DNA from: a virus
Strand: one strand, 5' to 3'
IMG/VR virus record: IMGVR_UViG_3300022602_000152
Location: 1 to 48,699 of that record
DNA: 48,699 nt
This document shows, in pieces, positions 5,075-15,366 of this stretch (positions are counted from its first letter, which is position 1; every line of letters starts with the position of its first letter). Made by a program: the position numbers and the translations under genes. Under the pieces are notes generated by a model. It was given only the letters and a program-made list of their open reading frames with translations, had not been told where the DNA came from and ran no database searches.

Positions 5075-5503
5075 ATGCCAAGTAAAATAAAAAGTGTTTG
5101 TAAAAATTGTGGTGTTAGTTTTATACACGGAAACAGTTCATATGGAATATATTGTAGTAATAAGTGCCAAGGGGAACTTAAATCTAAAACAATTCTAGAA
5201 AATTGGTTTAATGGAACAGATAAAGGTTATAAAGTAGGATTTAGAATTAAACCTGCTATAAGAAATTACCTGTTAGAAAAAAATAATTATAGTTGCTCTC
5301 AATGTGGGTGGAATAAAATAAACCCTAAAACAGGAAAATCCCCTTTAGAAATTGATCACATTGATGGAGATTGCGCAAACAATAAAGAAGAAAATTTAAG
5401 GGTTCTTTGCCCAAATTGTCATTCTTTAACCCCAACATGGAAGGCATTAAACAAAGGAAATGGGAATAAAGAAAGTCATCGATATTCAGGTCTTATAAAA
5501 TAG
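5075..5503 (+). CDS. HNH homing endonuclease
   Basis: This 142-aa protein has an N-terminal zinc finger (Cys9, Cys12, Cys27, Cys31) followed by an HNH nuclease with C74-x2-C77, the EIDHIDGD core (Asp94, His95), ENLRVLCPNCH (Asn107, Cys112, Cys115) and His116. It would cut DNA near its own insertion site. It lies directly after tRNA-Lys, matching the tRNA-linked pattern of the other endonucleases here. Expression is probably held until late infection by the hairpin at 5039-5073. The length and domain order are typical of free-standing phage HNH enzymes. Confidence 0.9.
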   Translation: MPSKIKSVCKNCGVSFIHGNSSYGIYCSNKCQGELKSKTILENWFNGTDKGYKVGFRIKPAIRNYLLEKNNYSCSQCGWNKINPKTGKSPLEIDHIDGDCANNKEENLRVLCPNCHSLTPTWKALNKGNGNKESHRYSGLIK

Positions 5504-5581: not shown

Positions 5582-6298
5582 ATGAGTCCTGACATTAGAG
5601 ATTATGAATCACGAGAAGCGTTTATTCGTGATCTTAAAATATGGCATCATGATAAATCCGTAAAACAAGATGAATTTACTAAACTAAAATCTACTACTAT
5701 TGATTATAGCGCAGAACTTACAAAATTAAAAAACAAGCTAGAAATAATTAAAACGACTTGGAATGACCAAAGTATTGCTACAATACGCAAACATGTTGCC
5801 CAAAGCGGCAATCAGCAAAGCGTGGAAATAATGGTTGGTCAAGATAATGACAAGATCAAAGCTGGGTTAGATATTAATAAGTCAATGTATCATGTTCAGC
5901 AAGTAAGCAATGACAGTGTTTGGTATAAGATTGCTCAACAATATCCATTTGATAATCCACTTGTTAGATTGCATGTTCAATTTCCAGGCGATGTTACTCA
6001 GTGGCATACTGATATTTTTGCGCCTTATCACAATCTTTTGCCAAAAACTGCTAATATGCCAACCGAAGAAATTGGCAAAGATGTTGGCATTAGAAGAATT
6101 TTAATCGCAATTGAAGATTGGGATTGGGGACATTGCTTTATGTTTGGTGCAAATATGTGGCATCAATGGAAAGCTGGCGAAGCAATTTACTGGAACTATG
6201 GCGTTCCTCATTGTGCCGCTAATATGGGATTTACTCCTAGAATTTCATTAAGCATAACTGGTTTGCTGAACGAAGATATTAATAATTATTTTGTATGA
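5582..6298 (+). CDS. 2OG-Fe(II) oxygenase-like protein (238 aa)
   Basis: The C-terminal half carries the iron-binding triad of 2-oxoglutarate/Fe(II) oxygenases of the aspartyl/asparaginyl hydroxylase type. It has WHTD (His142, Asp144), a distal His210 in VPHCAANMG and Arg220 for 2-oxoglutarate. The first 70 residues are charged, with coiled-coil character. The protein shares its core (WxAGEAI-W-VPHxxANMG) with the gene at 14635-15366, so the phage has two paralogues. The substrate is unknown; protein, nucleotide or small-molecule hydroxylation are all possible. Its stop overlaps the next ATG by four bases, so it leads a three-gene operon with the PP-loop enzyme. Confidence 0.8.
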   Translation: MSPDIRDYESREAFIRDLKIWHHDKSVKQDEFTKLKSTTIDYSAELTKLKNKLEIIKTTWNDQSIATIRKHVAQSGNQQSVEIMVGQDNDKIKAGLDINKSMYHVQQVSNDSVWYKIAQQYPFDNPLVRLHVQFPGDVTQWHTDIFAPYHNLLPKTANMPTEEIGKDVGIRRILIAIEDWDWGHCFMFGANMWHQWKAGEAIYWNYGVPHCAANMGFTPRISLSITGLLNEDINNYFV

Positions 6299-6585
6299 CT
6301 AAAAAATCTATTGCCGTAAAACAATCAAAAGAATTTTTAGAACTACACCAATCATTTAGTGAAGTTAAACAAAAGTTAGTTCACTTATATGTTAAAAACA
6401 ACTATGATAATAAATTTTTGCAAGCATGTGCCGATCTAGATGAATTTCAATTAAGAATTACGCAAGATTTTTTAACATACTCAACCAATGATACCGATAA
6501 AAACTTAGATGAATTTTCTGACTCTATTGGACTTATCAAAATTTATCTTAGTAATTTTTACAATGTTTACGAAAACAATTTATAA
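6295..6585 (+). CDS. Small hypothetical protein of the oxygenase/PP-loop operon (96 aa)
   Basis: This 96-aa protein is mostly helical and charged, starting MTKKSIAVKQSKEFLELHQ. No family is recognised. It overlaps the oxygenase stop by ATGA and shares its last base with the ATG of the PP-loop gene, so translation of all three is coupled. A small subunit or carrier for the flanking enzymes is possible, but it has no lipoyl- or ACP-like attachment motif that I can see. Confidence 0.8.
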   Translation: MTKKSIAVKQSKEFLELHQSFSEVKQKLVHLYVKNNYDNKFLQACADLDEFQLRITQDFLTYSTNDTDKNLDEFSDSIGLIKIYLSNFYNVYENNL

Positions 6586-7691
6586 TGAAAGCAATTCAAT
6601 CATTTTCTAATCAAACAATGTTTGATAAAATATTAAATTTACATGGCATAATTGGAAAAAATTATGATTATGAAGGATATGATGATTTAAAATTGTTATA
6701 TGATATAAACAAGATTTTTAGTAATAAGCCATATGGTGAAATAATAGACAGAACAGGATTGACAAAATATCCTTTTAAAGTTCATATTAGATTGCCATGG
6801 GTTATACCAACCAAACCCGTTGATCTAAAAACTGCATGTGAAAATAAAGTAAAAGAAATTGCCGCAACTAATCCAAATCAATTTTATATCTATTGGAGTG
6901 GCGGAATTGACAGCACCCTTATGTTGGTTAGCTTTCTTAAATTAATCGATCATAACAAAATAACTGTTATTTTAAGTAATCGATCTATTGAAGAATATCC
7001 ACACTTTTATACAAATTTTATTAAAAACAAATTAACAGTTTTAACCTTATCTGATAACATTCCAAAAGATAACGGTGTTCATATTACAGGTGATCCCGCT
7101 GACACTTTATGGGCAATTTTAGATCATTCCTTCATGGAAGGAGAAGCTGGTGCTTATCTTTATAAACCATATCAAGCTTGGTTTAAGCATCGTGGAGCAA
7201 GTGAAGATTTAATAGAAAAAACCAATGAGTTTATGAATCGTAGCGGTAAAACAATAACTACATTGTTTGAAGCCAGATGGTGGTATTATTTAAATTGCAA
7301 GTCACAAAGTAAATGCGTTAGCATAACTTCACGATTTGATATAAACAAAAATTATTGTCCATTTTTTGAAAGTAATGATTTTGATACTTGGTCATTTTAC
7401 AATACTGATCACATGATAGTTGGCAGCGATTGGAAAACTTACAAATATCCTGCAAAAGAAATAATCTATGAGTTTGCAAAAGATAGGGATTATCTGCTAA
7501 ACAAAAGCAAAGATTATAGTGATGATCCTGCTAATCAACTTAGAAAAGTTCCATCTAATTTTAGAAACAAACCGTTGTTTATAACAGATGATTATAGGCA
7601 ACCAGTACTATCAAGTGGTTTCTTTTTTAGTGAAAACATTTATAAACAAGAATTATACGAGACATATAAAGATTTATTCAAGCCTACGTAA
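6585..7691 (+). CDS. PP-loop ATP-pyrophosphatase-like protein (368 aa)
   Basis: The SGGIDST signature at residues 105-111, after a YIYW strand, is the PP-loop of the N-type ATP pyrophosphatase/asparagine-synthetase superfamily, which activates a carboxyl or carbonyl by adenylylation. A GDPADTLWAIL segment near residue 170 fits a second nucleotide-side helix. No glutaminase domain is present, so ammonia or another nucleophile must come from elsewhere. The N-terminal 100 residues are unassigned. Pairing with a 2OG oxygenase in a coupled operon suggests a modification pathway for a peptide, tRNA or metabolite. The exact reaction cannot be stated. Confidence 0.75.
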   Translation: MKAIQSFSNQTMFDKILNLHGIIGKNYDYEGYDDLKLLYDINKIFSNKPYGEIIDRTGLTKYPFKVHIRLPWVIPTKPVDLKTACENKVKEIAATNPNQFYIYWSGGIDSTLMLVSFLKLIDHNKITVILSNRSIEEYPHFYTNFIKNKLTVLTLSDNIPKDNGVHITGDPADTLWAILDHSFMEGEAGAYLYKPYQAWFKHRGASEDLIEKTNEFMNRSGKTITTLFEARWWYYLNCKSQSKCVSITSRFDINKNYCPFFESNDFDTWSFYNTDHMIVGSDWKTYKYPAKEIIYEFAKDRDYLLNKSKDYSDDPANQLRKVPSNFRNKPLFITDDYRQPVLSSGFFFSENIYKQELYETYKDLFKPT

Positions 7692-7707
7692 CTCAGTGGA
7701 ATAGAAT

Positions 7708-7786
7708 GCAACTGTATGCCGCCTGACTTCGAATCAGGAGAAAGCTAATTGGATACATGTAGGTTCGAGTCCTATCAGTTGCTCCA
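7708..7786 (+). tRNA. trnR: tRNA-Arg (TCG), rearranged: D arm out of place
   Basis: Acceptor GCAACTG/CAGTTGC pairs perfectly, discriminator T, encoded CCA. The anticodon arm CCTGA-CTTCGAA-TCAGG and the T arm GTAGG-TTCGAGT-CCTAT are good. Only seven bases (TATGCCG) stand where the D arm should be, and the variable region is about 20 nt. A D-arm-like stretch (TAACTCAGTGGAATAGAAT) lies just upstream of the acceptor strand, and another D-like stretch (AGCTAATTGGATA) lies in the variable region. Confidence 0.6.
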
Positions 7787-10054: not shown

Positions 10055-10347
10055 CGCCTACAATAGATGATATAGAAATAGGTTTATTAACCTCTCTTGC
10101 CCCAGACAAATATCTTATTAAAATATATCCAAATCTTTCTGGTACAGTTTTTCTACCACCGCTTAGCACAAATTTTCTCAAAGAAACAATTCAACAACCA
10201 TTAAAGAAATGGTGTGACGAATGTTTTAGTGGCAGTTATTCATTAAATTATAGATTCAATAGCGGCGATCCATATTGGTCGCTACTTTTTAATAATAGCG
10301 AAGATGTTAATATCTTTATGTTGCGCTTCGGCTCAAATAAACTCTAA
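10051..10347 (+). CDS. Hypothetical protein (98 aa)
   Basis: This 98-aa protein of mixed alpha/beta character begins MTPTIDDIEIGLLTSLAPDK. It has two cysteines (WCDEC) in a CxxC-like spacing, with no other sign of metal binding. No family is recognised. It is coupled by ATGA to the upstream 52-aa ORF. Its last 32 bases overlap the end of the convergent sulfotransferase-like gene. Confidence 0.7.
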   Translation: MTPTIDDIEIGLLTSLAPDKYLIKIYPNLSGTVFLPPLSTNFLKETIQQPLKKWCDECFSGSYSLNYRFNSGDPYWSLLFNNSEDVNIFMLRFGSNKL

Positions 10348-10948
10348 TATCATTTGCCGCATAGTTTTGAATATTCAATTGTAATGGCGTAGCAATTCCT
10401 AACTTTTCACATAATTCAATATTGTCATACATCATTGATGATTGATTATTTTTTACAAACTTCTTTAAGTCTTCGTTTTGTTTATCAATATGATGACTCA
10501 TATCACGCAAATTCTTATAATATCCTTCATAACTAGGATAAGTTATGTTAAAGTGTCCACAACGGACCCACCAGCCCAAACAAGCATCATTGTCTCGGTG
10601 AACGAGAATGATTGGGCAATCTGGCCAAGTCTTGCGAATAAAATCAAGATGATGGCAGAACACATGACTCTTAATGATGCGAACTCCCTCACCACTAAAC
10701 GGACGATCAAATTCCTCTTCTAATTCGTGCTTGCTCATATATTCCATTAGATTAAGTTTGTCACCAAATTCCATACCTGTATCAAAATACGCACCAAGAT
10801 GCATAAGCTGATTGGTACCACTGGCGTCATGATAATAGGTTCTCTTATCGCTATAATCACTGGTATCAATGCTTGAAGAAAAATAAATGTTTTTTACTAC
10901 ACTACTCCACTTACTGCCTGGTGCGCCCGCAACAAAAATATATTTCAT
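10316..10948 (-). CDS. Sulfotransferase-like P-loop protein (210 aa)
   Basis: The start MKYIFVAGAPGSKWSS has a glycine-rich PAPS-type loop (GAPGSKWS, residues 8-15) after a first beta strand. A central CPIILVHRDNDACLGWW fits the strand-helix that holds the 3'-phosphate site in sulfotransferase folds. Two other genes here (13889 and 16183) share the same layout. The acceptor could be a lipid, a sugar or a protein; nothing in the sequence decides. It is the last gene of the minus-strand accessory operon. Its ATG overlaps the stop of the inserted GIY-YIG gene by four bases and is preceded by AGAGGT. Confidence 0.65.
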   Translation of the reverse strand: MKYIFVAGAPGSKWSSVVKNIYFSSSIDTSDYSDKRTYYHDASGTNQLMHLGAYFDTGMEFGDKLNLMEYMSKHELEEEFDRPFSGEGVRIIKSHVFCHHLDFIRKTWPDCPIILVHRDNDACLGWWVRCGHFNITYPSYEGYYKNLRDMSHHIDKQNEDLKKFVKNNQSSMMYDNIELCEKLGIATPLQLNIQNYAANDIRVYLSRSAT

Positions 10949-11592
10949 AGCCGACCTCTTGTATAACCAGAAGGTTGTTGATTTTCATAAAATCTTCTTG
11001 ATTTATTTCCATCATTATACCACAATTTGCCTTTACAAGCGTTCGAGTATGCGGTAATTAATTCTTCCGTTAAATTTACTTTTGATTTTTTTCTACTATT
11101 GCTTATTTGTTTTCTTGTTTCTTCTGTATGATGTTTGCCATACATTCCGTTTTCTTTACCTTTTAATTTTGGATTTTTTGGATTAGGTTTGCCATACCTA
11201 TGATTTTTTTGACCTGTTTGTGCTAACGATTTTTTTCTACTATGTTCTTCTGTAAATTTTCTACCTTTTAATTTAGAAGAAACTTGATTTTTCCATTGTT
11301 CTGTTTTCACAGAACTTCCCAATCCGCCAACTGTCATATTATAATTGTCAGAATTTTGAATAAATTGCTCATTTACTAATAAAAATTCCTTTTCAAACGC
11401 TTGTTTTCTAGTTTCAAAAAATTCTAATATTTCAAAAGTAAAATTTTCTAACCCATATTTTTTAATTGCTTGTTTTATTTGAATTCCAGAACCATAATAA
11501 TTATCATGAATATTATTTGTGCTATGTGCTCCAATATAAAACTTACCAGTAACTTTATTTGTTGTTCTATATACATAGTGATATTTTTTCAC
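10945..11592 (-). CDS. GIY-YIG homing endonuclease, NUMOD3 motif
   Basis: This 215-aa protein has YVYR at residues 6-9 and FYIG at 18-21, the GIY and YIG elements, then YGSG and KYGLENF. NUMOD3-type repeats follow (GRKFTEEHSRKKS and GKHHTEETRKQIS). It sits inside the accessory operon with no gap. Its GTG start overlaps the stop of the nucleotidyltransferase gene (TAGTG) and has an AAAGGA ribosome-binding site. Its stop overlaps the ATG of the next gene. The insertion therefore kept translational coupling on both sides. The AT-rich, lysine-rich composition differs from its neighbours. Confidence 0.88.
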   Translation of the reverse strand: MKKYHYVYRTTNKVTGKFYIGAHSTNNIHDNYYGSGIQIKQAIKKYGLENFTFEILEFFETRKQAFEKEFLLVNEQFIQNSDNYNMTVGGLGSSVKTEQWKNQVSSKLKGRKFTEEHSRKKSLAQTGQKNHRYGKPNPKNPKLKGKENGMYGKHHTEETRKQISNSRKKSKVNLTEELITAYSNACKGKLWYNDGNKSRRFYENQQPSGYTRGRL

Positions 11593-11969
11593 TACAATAA
11601 TCCTTTTTGTTTCATATCCTCTCTAATTTTTGTAGCAGATATTGCTTCTATTTCATCAGGAAGTTCTATCTTATTTATCTTGTATCCCACATCTCTACCA
11701 TAAAAAATTTCTGTAATATTAGAAACTAGATTGACTAAAAAATCATGTTTAAATTTAAAACCTTCTGCTTCTAAATCTTTTATAATTTTTTCTTTAACAA
11801 ATGAATAATCAAACGGATTTTTCTCATCTGTTCCGCCAGTGTCACGAACCATAATCATAACTTGACCTGTCTTGGCATGTGCTCGCTTAAACAATTCAGT
11901 ATGACCTGGATGCCATGGCTGGTATCTTCCTAATAATTGTACAGTTGGTGCTTGATTATTCCATGTCAT
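11592..11969 (-). CDS. HxGH nucleotidyltransferase (cytidylyltransferase-like, 125 aa)
   Basis: The protein has the nucleotidylyltransferase motifs GRYQPWHPGH (HPGH at residues 20-23) and ISATKIR (110-116). These correspond to the HIGH and ISSTxxR motifs of the NadM, TagD and ATP-sulfurylase-like superfamily, which join a nucleotide to a phosphate-bearing substrate. A VRDTGG loop at 41-46 fits the fold. It directly follows the adenylylsulfate-kinase-like gene with ATGA coupling, so the two may act in sequence on sulfate or on an NMN- or phosphate-type substrate. The family is clear; the substrate is not. Confidence 0.75.
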   Translation of the reverse strand: MTWNNQAPTVQLLGRYQPWHPGHTELFKRAHAKTGQVMIMVRDTGGTDEKNPFDYSFVKEKIIKDLEAEGFKFKHDFLVNLVSNITEIFYGRDVGYKINKIELPDEIEAISATKIREDMKQKGLL

Positions 11970-12439
11970 GATAATTTTAATCCCTTAAACATTGCTTTAA
12001 TCCAAGTTGGATGAGTGTCGAAATCTAGTTCTTCCATAATATACTTTGACCAGAAATCCGCATCTTGTGTGTCTACACGAAAATAATAACTGCCTGGTTC
12101 TGGATTCACAAACATTTTGTTCGTGTCTTCAAATCGCCCTTCTTTGATCGTGTCAACCCAAATAACGGTAGCAGGTCCGAAGGCTGCACGAGTAGCTGGT
12201 GTGGGACAAACAAAATCGGCTATCACCCATGAACCTGCTGCCGTAACTTGGTCACAAAGCCATCCCATTCGTCTGGCTTGTTCAATTCTATCTGCTTCAC
12301 TGAATCCAAGATGACTGTTAATGTTTGCACGAACAGCATCAGCGTTCCAGTGAACTGCTTTTAATTTTGGTGCTAAGGCTTTCGCCAGAGTGGTTTTACC
12401 CGACCCTGGCAAGCCCATTATGAGTATCTTCTTGTTCAT
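11966..12439 (-). CDS. Adenylylsulfate-kinase-like P-loop kinase (157 aa)
   Basis: Walker A is GLPGSGKTT (9-17). The segment NADAVRANINSHLGFSEADRIEQARR matches the APS-kinase pattern (D-x-VR, N..LGFS..DR..) and ADFVCP matches the strand after it. APS kinase makes PAPS, the sulfate donor for sulfotransferases, and three sulfotransferase-like proteins are encoded nearby. The C-terminal third, with WVDTIKEGRFEDTNKMF, is less conserved, so a related small-molecule kinase is possible. It overlaps the symporter stop by four bases and the next gene by four bases. Confidence 0.72.
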   Translation of the reverse strand: MNKKILIMGLPGSGKTTLAKALAPKLKAVHWNADAVRANINSHLGFSEADRIEQARRMGWLCDQVTAAGSWVIADFVCPTPATRAAFGPATVIWVDTIKEGRFEDTNKMFVNPEPGSYYFRVDTQDADFWSKYIMEELDFDTHPTWIKAMFKGLKLS

Positions 12440-13905
12440 GTGGAAGCCTTACTAATTTGTGTGATGGCAAGTGATAAAACACCACTGCCAAATACAGCAA
12501 GCATAGTTCCTAGAACCGCAATGTTTGGTCCACCACCAAAGTTCATGCCATAAACATAAGTGGTAAATCCAACTAGGTATGCAATCAACACACCCCAAAA
12601 CATTCCACGCTCGTTAACCAATCTATCATTCCATAGGCTCAGCATGAGTGGGAACCATACTGTTGCACGAAGAATACCAAAGAACAAGAAGATGGTTACC
12701 AGAGTCATACCAGGCCAGTTAGCAAGGGTTAAACCAGCAACAATAAGACCTAACATACCAAACCGTGCATAGGTAATGCTTTTTACATTGCCAATATCAG
12801 TTGGCAAATCGTTGACCATGTTTTTAATATCATGCCCAACAAGGTTACCAACACTGCTCAACTGGCTGTCAAGGACGCTTACAAGCCCAGCAAACAGCAT
12901 AAACAAGAATAACATAGTTGCCCAATGAGGAAGAATTGCTCCAATAGTTACAATGTTTGTGTATCCAACCAATGCCTTTGGAATATCATAATGCATACCA
13001 GCAGCAAGGAAACCTAATACGCCCGTTAATAGTGGAACGATAACAAAGATACATGCGCCGCCGACGAATGCACGGATTACATTTTCACGCTTGATAGCAA
13101 ATGCTCGTTGATAGAAACTATTATCTCCCCACGGTGCACCAAGATGTCCAATTGCAGTTGAGAAACCAACACTCATGAATACGCCAAGAGCAAAATCAGT
13201 TCCATAGATAGACGAACCGTTACCTGTAATGCCACCGAGACCAGCACTTACAATATCCCATCCACCAACACTAGATACTGCCCAAGGAACAAGAATAACC
13301 AAGCCAAGAATAAGCATACTTAACTTGAACATTTCTGTAATCACGCTTGCTTTTAAACCACCACGAAGAGTATATGTGAGAGCGATTGCAGCAAGGATGA
13401 AACTTACCGTATGATAATCCATACCTGTTAACACTTCAACACTCTTACTACCAGCAAGAACATTAATAGCAAATGAGCAGATTGCTAGCATACCAAGTTC
13501 AATCATGAATAGAATCTGCACACGATTACTGAATCGTTCTTTCAGGTATCCACTGATTGTAAATCCATCTGGTTTACGATCACGAAGACGAGAGGCAAAC
13601 CAACTGAATACAATGAGTGATAGGAAGTTACCGATTGTAAACCAGAACAATCCTACTACGCCATTTTGATAGGCTTGCTGTGCACTAATAAACATGCCTG
13701 GTGCCCACATCCAAGCAGCACCTGTGCTCATGGCACCTTGCAGCGTCGTTAATTCACGCTTTGCTACAAGAAATCCTTCTTTGGTATTAGCAAATCCACG
13801 TGCAAACCAATATGTTAGTCCAAAAATAACAGCAGCATATACTGCCAAAATTGTCATTCCTGTTCCGCTGTCAAATAGCGGAAACAATTTAGTGAAGTCC
13901 ATCAT
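12436..13905 (-). CDS. Sodium:solute symporter family protein (489 aa)
   Basis: This long, strongly hydrophobic protein has about 13 membrane helices spread from residue 15 to the end, as in the SSS (LeuT-fold) family. The helices include the sequences TILAVYAAVIFGLTYWF, GVLGFLAAGM and LFAGLVSVLDSQLSSVGN. The last matches the family region containing the Na+-site serines. An ATG at 13905 (and another at 13902) follows AGGAG. It is full length with no break. Import of a solute into the infected cell, or out of it, is the expected job; the substrate is unknown. Placement with kinase, transferase and oxygenase genes in one overlapping operon suggests an auxiliary metabolic module. Confidence 0.85.
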   Translation of the reverse strand: MMDFTKLFPLFDSGTGMTILAVYAAVIFGLTYWFARGFANTKEGFLVAKRELTTLQGAMSTGAAWMWAPGMFISAQQAYQNGVVGLFWFTIGNFLSLIVFSWFASRLRDRKPDGFTISGYLKERFSNRVQILFMIELGMLAICSFAINVLAGSKSVEVLTGMDYHTVSFILAAIALTYTLRGGLKASVITEMFKLSMLILGLVILVPWAVSSVGGWDIVSAGLGGITGNGSSIYGTDFALGVFMSVGFSTAIGHLGAPWGDNSFYQRAFAIKRENVIRAFVGGACIFVIVPLLTGVLGFLAAGMHYDIPKALVGYTNIVTIGAILPHWATMLFLFMLFAGLVSVLDSQLSSVGNLVGHDIKNMVNDLPTDIGNVKSITYARFGMLGLIVAGLTLANWPGMTLVTIFLFFGILRATVWFPLMLSLWNDRLVNERGMFWGVLIAYLVGFTTYVYGMNFGGGPNIAVLGTMLAVFGSGVLSLAITQISKAST

Positions 13906-14638
13906 TATACTCCTTAAAAATATTATAAATTGATTGTTGTGCAGCGGTCAAATCCGCCAATTTGTTGCTATACAAGTCATCAAGAACTTGTAAATTGTTT
14001 TGCATACTAACCATGCGAGCATGAACATTAGTAAAATCTAACGCATCTACGATATCCCAATCTAAATGCGTATATAACTTTTGAAGTAATTTAGTTGGAT
14101 CGCCATTTAAAATATCACTGACGCTGACTCTAACAATACGAGAATCTGATACATCGCACGAACGATTATCAATCTCTTGCTGCAATCGTTCTGTTAATTG
14201 TGCATCATCCCTAATGTCAAGCATACCATACCAACGCTCACGAGTCATCTTTGTTTCATTGTTTAACCAACATAAGAATACCTCATGTAGGGTAGGTCTT
14301 TCAATAAAAATAATTCGATCATCACTATTCATCCAACGAAGTATTTGGTGGATGGCTGGGTCAATATCCTCTCCGATAGCCGCTGGCCATCCACCATAGA
14401 TGCTGTAACCCCAGTGGGAAATGGCATTACGGCATTTTTCTAATTCTTCCATAAACGAATCGGTATCACGCACTTTGCAAAAACTTGCATAACCATGACT
14501 ACTGCCATCTGGTTGCAAAGGATTATCCATTATAGGTGGCTGATGCGTTTTTCTAATAGCATTAAAACGGTCTAATGCCCAACCAATAAAACTGCCATAG
14601 GCACCAGGCGCATATACTATGGTAATAACTCGATTCAA
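13889..14638 (-). CDS. P-loop, sulfotransferase-like protein (249 aa)
   Basis: The start MNRVITIVYAPGAYGSFIGW resembles the strand-loop-helix PAPS-binding element of sulfotransferases, with APGAYGSF in place of a classic PKxGTT loop. RIIFIERPTLHEVFLCWL (around residue 90-125) fits the core strand with the Arg that binds the 3'-phosphate. RIVRVSVSDIL is a later strand. The fit is weaker than for the other two, so a general P-loop family call is safer. It overlaps the oxygenase stop by four bases and the symporter start by 17. Confidence 0.55.
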   Translation of the reverse strand: MNRVITIVYAPGAYGSFIGWALDRFNAIRKTHQPPIMDNPLQPDGSSHGYASFCKVRDTDSFMEELEKCRNAISHWGYSIYGGWPAAIGEDIDPAIHQILRWMNSDDRIIFIERPTLHEVFLCWLNNETKMTRERWYGMLDIRDDAQLTERLQQEIDNRSCDVSDSRIVRVSVSDILNGDPTKLLQKLYTHLDWDIVDALDFTNVHARMVSMQNNLQVLDDLYSNKLADLTAAQQSIYNIFKEYNDGLH

Positions 14639-15366
14639 AGTTTTACCACCAATTGTTTGCTAGCACCACCAACTACATCACGAGTTCTATCTGTAACATA
14701 TCCAGTGATTTGTAACATAGGACGATCCCACCAACCCATGTTAGCGGTGGCATGTGGCATATCTTGCCATTCCCATGTGATACAATCTCCTGCTCGCCAT
14801 TGAGTAAAGTTGGCATTGCCTAGTTGAAATACTTGTCCCATTTCCCAATCTGCTAACATGATGGCAAACCTACGCATAATGTCTGGATTCTTATCCATCT
14901 CTGTTACTTTAAAACTGTTTTCACGTTCTGGTCTGGCTGCAAAATTATCAATATGAGTATGCAGCATTTGTCCTGTTGTTTGATTATGAAATTTAATCAT
15001 GCTTTCATCCATGCCAAGCCAATCGCTTACTTTTTGAAAAATTTCAATATCTTCTGCTGCGGTGCGATTAAACACTTCTTGATCAGGGTTGGCTCCTGCA
15101 CGAATCAAATCTTGTTCTTCTGCGGTTGCACTATACAAACCTTTATCCGCAATATCTTTGTTAAAATTGTTGCGAGTTCCCCAACTACTGGCTTTTGTAC
15201 GAGGCAAGCATTCACGGATTGCATCCGTAAAATCTGCGTCAAATTTACAAACGTGAGTGTAACTGTCTATGCCTGGTGCTGGTGGTCGTTTAGTATCAAA
15301 ATGCCAACGGCTACGGCTTTTAGTAAATTCCCAACGACTATCGCCCCAATTTTCATATTCTGTCAT
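14635..15366 (-). CDS. 2OG-Fe(II) oxygenase-like protein (243 aa)
   Basis: HTHID supplies His138 and Asp140, DMPHATANMG supplies His205, and Arg215 follows in DRPMLQITG. This is the complete Fe(II)/2-oxoglutarate set. The N-terminal 60 residues are rich in Trp and Arg (WGDSRWEFTKSRSRWHFD). It is a paralogue of the 5582-6298 gene with the same core spacing but a different N-terminus. It is the first gene of the minus-strand accessory operon, with a late promoter 50 nt upstream and a GGGAAA ribosome-binding site. The substrate is not known. Confidence 0.8.
   Translation of the reverse strand: MTEYENWGDSRWEFTKSRSRWHFDTKRPPAPGIDSYTHVCKFDADFTDAIRECLPRTKASSWGTRNNFNKDIADKGLYSATAEEQDLIRAGANPDQEVFNRTAAEDIEIFQKVSDWLGMDESMIKFHNQTTGQMLHTHIDNFAARPERENSFKVTEMDKNPDIMRRFAIMLADWEMGQVFQLGNANFTQWRAGDCITWEWQDMPHATANMGWWDRPMLQITGYVTDRTRDVVGGASKQLVVKL

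Follow-up and report, generated by a model that had tools for sequence, protein, structure and literature searches.

A recurrent phage cassette of a 2OG oxygenase, a small protein and an asparagine-synthetase-like ligase

Described systems and the phage locus

Two described systems are precedents for the locus reported here. In the first, CmoY of Synechococcus phage S-B43 ligates glycine to 5-carboxymethylcytosine in DNA (PMC12783734), while in the second a peptide is the shared target of the asparagine-synthetase-like enzyme PesC and a 2OG-dependent hydroxylase (PMC13060819). The clavulanic acid pathway provides a further point of reference, as background: a ligase of the β-lactam synthetase (BLS) type is followed by a 2OG oxygenase (clavaminate synthase) on the same molecule (PMC6097109).

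The locus lies in the DNA of a freshwater phage, a 48.7-kb IMG/VR virus fragment that is referred to, in its entirety, as the window; it carries T4-type structural genes, such as that of a gp15-like tail sheath stabiliser. Three genes follow one another on the plus strand, encoding a 2OG-Fe(II) oxygenase (5582-6298, 238 aa), a small protein (6295-6585, 96 aa) and a PP-loop protein (6585-7691, 368 aa), the last of which is called the ligase below. A first-pass annotation had noted that the oxygenase gene overlaps the small ORF by four bases and the small ORF the PP-loop gene by one, and both overlaps were confirmed at exactly these coordinates.

The ligase shares its predicted fold, an SGGxDS loop, a GEGxDE-like second motif and the position of a catalytic lysine with the C-terminal domain of AsnB, BLS and carbapenam synthetase (CarA). 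Unlike these enzymes, to which it is about 12% identical, it has no N-terminal Ntn domain, and it alone possesses additional conserved DRT, WW and YKxxxK motifs and a dedicated upstream partner gene. CmoY is likewise a phage asparagine-synthetase-like amide ligase devoid of a glutaminase domain; however, it measures 271 aa as against 368 aa, no sequence kinship between the two was detected, no small partner or oxygenase has been described for it, and CmoA and CmoX are not linked to the family of the window ligase.

The CmoY precedent leads to the question as to whether the cassette serves DNA hypermodification, with the ligase joining an amine to a carboxylated DNA base. DNA was among the targets named in the first-pass annotation, and the CmoY of S-B43 is of the same glutaminase-less type (PMC12783734). 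The similarity nevertheless ends at short motifs (BLASTP E 0.46; 20 columns in hhalign). When CmoA and CmoX were searched for in the window and in the contigs of 31 relatives, a search in which the positive control was detected, the two were found together in one of these 32 contigs, far from its ligase, and were absent from the window record and from the contigs of 30 of the 31 relatives, the records being fragments; as the window too is one, a methyltransferase may lie farther away in the same genome. Bacterial homologues of the ligase, moreover, reside in chromosomal cassettes, and we regard a DNA target as very unlikely.

The pes (nitrilobacillin) cluster resembles the cassette in that an asparagine-synthetase-like enzyme (PesC), a 2OG-dependent oxygenase (PesO) and a small gene product (PesA) are encoded together. 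It differs in that PesO is an α-KG HExxH enzyme, in its additional MNIO, peptidases and transporter, and in the conserved C-terminal motif of its precursor, which has no counterpart in the small ORF of the cassette. As for clavulanic acid, the likeness is in working principle only; the cassette lacks other pathway enzymes, and BLS retains an Ntn-derived domain. We would therefore place the cassette beside the CmoY and pes systems as similar in principle, rather than as a member of either. Literature searches on phage oxygenases with PP-loop proteins and on cupins with asparagine synthetases gave no description of it, and for the viral 'Asparagine synthase' models of UniProt the papers searched describe neither the partner, nor the oxygenase, nor the bacterial cassette discussed below. 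The cassette combines ordinary enzyme folds in a recurrent and apparently undescribed arrangement.

Conservation of the cassette and its two enzymes

The same gene order is present in the window and in three more viral contigs (L001, L005 and L010), and the genes are co-conserved. Relative to L001, a phage contig that is 87% identical, dN/dS is lowest in the oxygenase (0.10, over the part present in L001), similar in the PP-loop gene (0.11) and highest in the small ORF (0.16); all three genes are real and under purifying selection. Identity to the window falls to 45% for both the oxygenase and the PP-loop protein and to 19% for the small ORF in L005, and to 41% for the oxygenase and 31% for the PP-loop protein in L010, the lowest value for the ligase. 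The small ORF of L010 comprises approximately 80 aa and ends at position 5938, in an ATGA overlap with the PP-loop start. When 2.9 million viral contigs were searched using the alignment of the oxygenase, L005 and L010 came up again and no others did; hence, every detected member of the cassette oxygenase (four of four) adjoins a ligase.

Of 70 non-redundant PP-loop genes, 68 have a same-strand gene directly upstream, overlapping in 50 cases, and translational coupling of the PP-loop gene to its upstream gene is, judging by gene arrangement, general. The one-base overlap itself is not kept: the small ORF of L001 extends 26 nt into the PP-loop gene, as measured to the homologous PP-loop start codon.

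The ligase was modelled from an alignment of 57 relatives (pLDDT 92.1, pTM 0.92). The top structural match of the model is β-lactam synthetase (1mc1; Z 13.8 over 192 residues), with ASNS (11.9), carbapenam synthetase (11.9) and AsnB (11.3) among the further matches and lower values for GMP synthetase (9.8), LarE (8.0) and TilS (7.6); overall, Z ranges from 11.2 to 13.8 for BLS, CarA, ASNS and AsnB, as against at most 9.8 for GMP and NAD synthetases and LarE. The synthetase match covers residues 67-317. Model, matches and motifs (SGGIDST at 105-111, GDPADT at 169-174, K287 and K309) together point to a glutaminase-less, asparagine-synthetase-like ATP pyrophosphatase, a putative amide ligase, which agrees with the earlier call of a PP-loop ATP-pyrophosphatase. 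Nucleotide binding, on which that call depended, is predicted by a motif whose residues S105, G106, G107, D109, S110 and T111 are invariant in 57 of 57 relatives. Among these relatives, E137 and K287 are also invariant, D173 is nearly so, and residue 309 is a lysine in 55. In the structural alignment K309 pairs with residue 443 of β-lactam synthetase 1mb9, the last aligned pair; this residue we take to be K443, the catalytic lysine of that enzyme. The second motif aligns, in the family profile, with GEGSDEL of human ASNS.

An Ntn glutaminase domain is not discernible, with no cysteine at position 2 in any of the 57 relatives and only 66 residues preceding the matched domain, and the absence of this domain implies that the amine would come from elsewhere. 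Pfam Asn_synthase (PF00733) gave no match for the window ligase, while relatives matched at E 0.03-0.21, below the gathering threshold. A full-length structural match was obtained to BFVD/UniProt entries named 'Asparagine synthase [uncultured Caudovirales phage]' (A0A6J7WLZ2 and similar; TM 0.73, E 9.5e-23), which makes the window ligase part of a viral family already databased under that name by homology only. Fold and motifs make ATP-dependent amide-type chemistry probable for the third gene, whose product is most likely, as modelled, an acyl-adenylate-forming amide ligase with no ammonia source of its own.

These comparisons bear on thiolation, in which the PP-loop protein would act on a tRNA or cofactor as a sulfur-transfer enzyme of the LarE, MnmA or TilS kind. 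LarE is indeed a weak sequence match to the PP-loop segment, and distant ligase relatives are annotated as mnmA in phage Cygsa01; on the other hand, the structural scores of LarE and TilS lie below the 13.8 reached by β-lactam synthetase, and a GEGxDE-like second motif is of the asparagine synthetase type. Resemblance to the asparagine synthetase/β-lactam synthetase type thus favours amide formation over thiolation as the reaction of the PP-loop protein. The first-pass annotation had proposed hydroxylation coupled to ATP-driven amidation or thiolation; the former pairing stands, whereas the thiolation part is hardly credible. Assignment of the protein as a thiolase or as QueC is disfavoured on the same structural grounds.

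The oxygenase (5582-6298, +) was predicted to adopt a double-stranded β-helix (pLDDT 82.8, pTM 0.81), with structural Z scores of 12.0 to SnoN (over 157 residues), 11.8 to PHD2 and 11.5 to proline 3-hydroxylase. It possesses the HxD...H metal triad and distal arginine, with H142, D144, H210 and R220 as the predicted metal and 2OG ligands; in the alignment of its family (A8), H142 and D144 are conserved at 90% or more and H210 and R220 at 100%. Fold and ligands both bear out its earlier identification, even though its sole Pfam match is below threshold (PF05118, E 0.018). A second 2OG oxygenase, 24% identical to that of the cassette, is encoded as a separate single gene at 14635-15366 (-) of the window, and its relatives occur at 44 freshwater viral loci, some on contigs of approximately 158 kb.

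The small protein and the wider ligase family

An alignment scan for relatives of the ligase yielded at least 402 candidate viral loci, of which 80 were kept. In a maximum-likelihood tree calculated for 43 ligases, the four that are linked to an oxygenase group together, set apart by a single branch (support 93/85), and their sister group consists of 18 ligases with a 90-aa partner, termed the c1 family, encoded upstream (97/92). In the clade of 23 ligases (100/99), each of the 23 is immediately preceded by an ORF of 80-117 aa that in most cases overlaps the ligase gene; this implies that the pairing of small protein and ligase predates the association with the oxygenase.

The 96-aa protein (6295-6585, +) is, judging by its sequence, probably helical, and its selection and its position upstream of the ligase make it a candidate subunit or adaptor of that enzyme. 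The first-pass annotation had considered it as carrier or substrate. A role as acyl or peptidyl carrier finds no support, as neither the small-ORF alignment (A5) nor the c1 family contains a conserved phosphopantetheine serine column. Homology between the small ORF and the c1 family is weak and not secure by sequence: hhalign gives E 2e-4 as a single comparison, and among 100 shuffled sequences 0-9 attain the HMM score, with 6 doing so for the c1 HMM.

Were the 96-aa protein instead the substrate, the cassette would make a ribosomal peptide, one residue being hydroxylated and a carboxylate amidated or cyclised as in the pes cluster, which has the same three types of part (precursor, 2OG-dependent oxygenase and asparagine-synthetase-like enzyme; PMC13060819). 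The small ORF is indeed the fastest-evolving of the three genes, by both dN/dS and identity to L005, and members of the c1 family end in a conserved small residue, often as RSA or RGA; the last c1 codon is, however, partly constrained by the ATGA overlap. The C-termini of the small ORFs are unrelated within the oxygenase clade (YENNL in the window, YENNSIIS in the 87%-identical L001 and FFKL in L005), and the end is therefore not a conserved core. Furthermore, neither a peptidase nor a transporter was found adjoining the cassette, and in other lineages unrelated N-terminal domains are fused to the ligase, an arrangement that suits a subunit or adaptor more than a consumed substrate. A ribosomal peptide is thus an unlikely reading. 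The position and length of the small ORF, which are kept across the clade, and these fusions make a ligase subunit or adaptor the most likely role of the 96-aa protein, in preference to a substrate. A single conserved subunit role explains poorly that other ligase clades have unrelated upstream partners: in pairwise comparisons of the families c1, c4, c89 and c98 and the bacterial 127-aa and 160-aa families, the only relationships found were between c4 and c89 and, weakly, between c1 and the window small ORF.

One such fusion, found once (L062, 5308-6912), joins a Phage_tail_APC domain (PF16778, E 2.3e-13) to the ligase and suggests that the partner, as an adaptor resembling a tail chaperone, could recruit the ligase to a tail fibre and so enable it to modify a virion protein. 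The ligase also adjoins tail or structural genes in phage Cygsa01 (L004), in L034, in L061 and in a Xanthomonas prophage (L117). The ligases of the window and of the c1 clade, by contrast, lie in a tRNA-rich cargo region outside the tail module; no consistent tail signal emerged among 105 neighbouring proteins (PHROGs and Pfam), and bacterial cassettes lie outside a phage context, which renders a virion target improbable.

Other arrangements were seen across the viral family. Direct homologues were absent from INPHARED phages at E 1e-3, while a weak match in Pseudomonas phage Cygsa01 is a genuine distant relative of the ligase, next to which lies a 90-aa protein that shows no homology to the small ORF; two 'mnmA' genes of this phage (4670-6819) are ligase family members and probably misannotated. 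Within the c1 clade (L018, L021-L032), 17 loci encode, after the c1-ligase pair, a conserved protein of 160-190 aa (cluster 2, no Pfam match). What looks like a virus-borne biosynthetic cluster is present in L067/L069 (1815-9546), where 8 kb accommodate four to five ligase paralogues together with a cupin and one partner protein, and L061/L063 (3315-6837) encode a glycine-rich tail-like protein followed by a ligase, a cupin and a second, fused ligase. Of the c1-type contigs, five have a further neighbour, with one of the five represented by two near-copies (L011/L012): the ligase adjoins a homologue of the 'amidinotransferase' gene of cyanophage S-SCSM2R, where the gene so annotated follows a relative of the cassette oxygenase; these neighbours weakly suggest amino-acid-type chemistry or substrates.

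Relatives of the ligase were also found at 45 loci in bacterial genomes, accompanied by a cupin in 25. In Tenacibaculum, Aquimarina, Fulvivirga and others, a stand-alone cassette consists of a cupin (210 aa), a 127-aa ORF and, last, the ligase, while in Neolewinella and others the cupin is placed after the ligase. These cassettes are chromosomal, and the cupin, ~127-aa ORF and ligase form a self-contained unit in L084-L095 and L128; that of Tenacibaculum sits between two genes judged by eye to encode aconitases. An hmmsearch of the bacterial cassettes with the small-ORF and c1 profiles returned nothing. Sets of a β-barrel metal protein, a small protein and a ligase thus arise in phages as well as in bacteria, the small proteins of the two being unrelated. 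Known anti-phage defence was considered and rejected, as PADLOC gave no credible match for either cassette, only a chance PbeC stretch. Perhaps these sets belong to one broad, undescribed class, spread over hundreds of viruses and, as stand-alone cassettes, among Bacteroidota and further bacteria. Each would pair a glutaminase-less ligase with an obligate small partner, accompanied in one lineage by an oxygenase, in another by a cupin and in a third by an amidinotransferase-like enzyme, and would install an amide on some metabolite or on a macromolecule; we put this forward as a tentative and somewhat doubtful generalisation.

Insertion between tRNA genes and proposed working

The window has 18 tRNA calls between 1.3 and 9.9 kb. 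Two relatives that share its flanks (G004 and G005) retain the tRNAs but are devoid of the cassette, and in L185 (from G005) the interval from tRNA-Lys to tRNA-Arg measures 766 bp and holds another gene, whereas that of the window extends over 2.66 kb. The reading frame of the ligase finishes, stop codon included, within what is left of the resident tRNA-Arg(TCG), a piece of its 5' half (7682-7707, +). Compared with the 5' end of the complete tRNA-Arg in L185, this remnant is identical at 24 of 26 positions in the window and at 26 of 26 in L001. The G+C content of the cassette is 0.308, compared with 0.376 for the whole window. Together these features mark the tRNA neighbourhood as an insertion site and give no evidence for a tRNA target; the cassette is, on this comparison of sequences, accessory cargo between tRNA genes. 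That the ligase gene abuts a tRNA gene within a tRNA cluster would suit the thiolation discussed above, but the presence of the tRNAs in close relatives without the cassette argues against it, and no tRNAs were found near distant ligase relatives. The tRNA suggested earlier as a possible target accordingly finds no support.

The tRNA-Arg(tcg) called by ARAGORN at 7694-7782 (+) looks chimeric, its acceptor at 7708-7714 pairing with 7776-7782 in the absence of a normal D arm. Across 7682-7786, the 5' half of the resident tRNA-Arg is followed by GCAACTG...CAGTTGC, with an anticodon arm preceding a D-arm-like piece, and the same structure occurs at 1561-1665 of L001. An HNH endonuclease gene (5075-5503, +; PHROG HNH families, E 1.9e-16) lies in the same tRNA-Lys/tRNA-Arg interval and, like the cassette, is absent from L185; it is possibly a mobilising neighbour outside the pathway. 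Elsewhere in the window, 10316-15366 (-) is operon-like, encoding sulfotransferase-like, GIY-YIG/NUMOD3, cytidylyltransferase-like and APS-kinase-like proteins, a sodium:solute symporter, a 249-aa protein and an oxygenase.

The reading we prefer is that of a two-enzyme tailoring unit, in which the ligase amidates and the oxygenase hydroxylates the same substrate, aided by the 96-aa protein as subunit or adaptor; to this model in full we assign a probability of about one half. The sequences establish gene order, selection, predicted folds, motifs and joint inheritance, from which amide chemistry, the role as subunit and a common substrate are inferred, similarity of fold being no proof of activity. 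The ligase would bind MgATP at SGGIDST and adenylate a carboxylate of the substrate, most likely an amino-acid-like or peptidyl one, with release of pyrophosphate. Attack by an amine on the adenylate would then yield the amide, K309 being placed as is the catalytic lysine of β-lactam synthetase; the amine may be an amino compound, free ammonia or an internal amine, rather than ammonia derived from glutamine on the same chain. The 96-aa protein, translated in a coupled fashion with the ligase, would be its obligate small subunit or adaptor and either stabilise it or present the substrate, and the oxygenase may hydroxylate that substrate before or after ligation. The view that the genes form a tailoring set rather than serve phage housekeeping, first put forward from the sequence of the window, is supported.

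Phage asparagine-synthetase-like ligases have recently been shown to perform new chemistry on DNA. The family of the window ligase is a separate, large branch of that fold, with at least 402 candidate viral and 45 genome loci and with partners and oxidative enzymes of its own. As its minimal unit comprises three genes in 2.1 kb, the product and the role of the partner are open to direct test.
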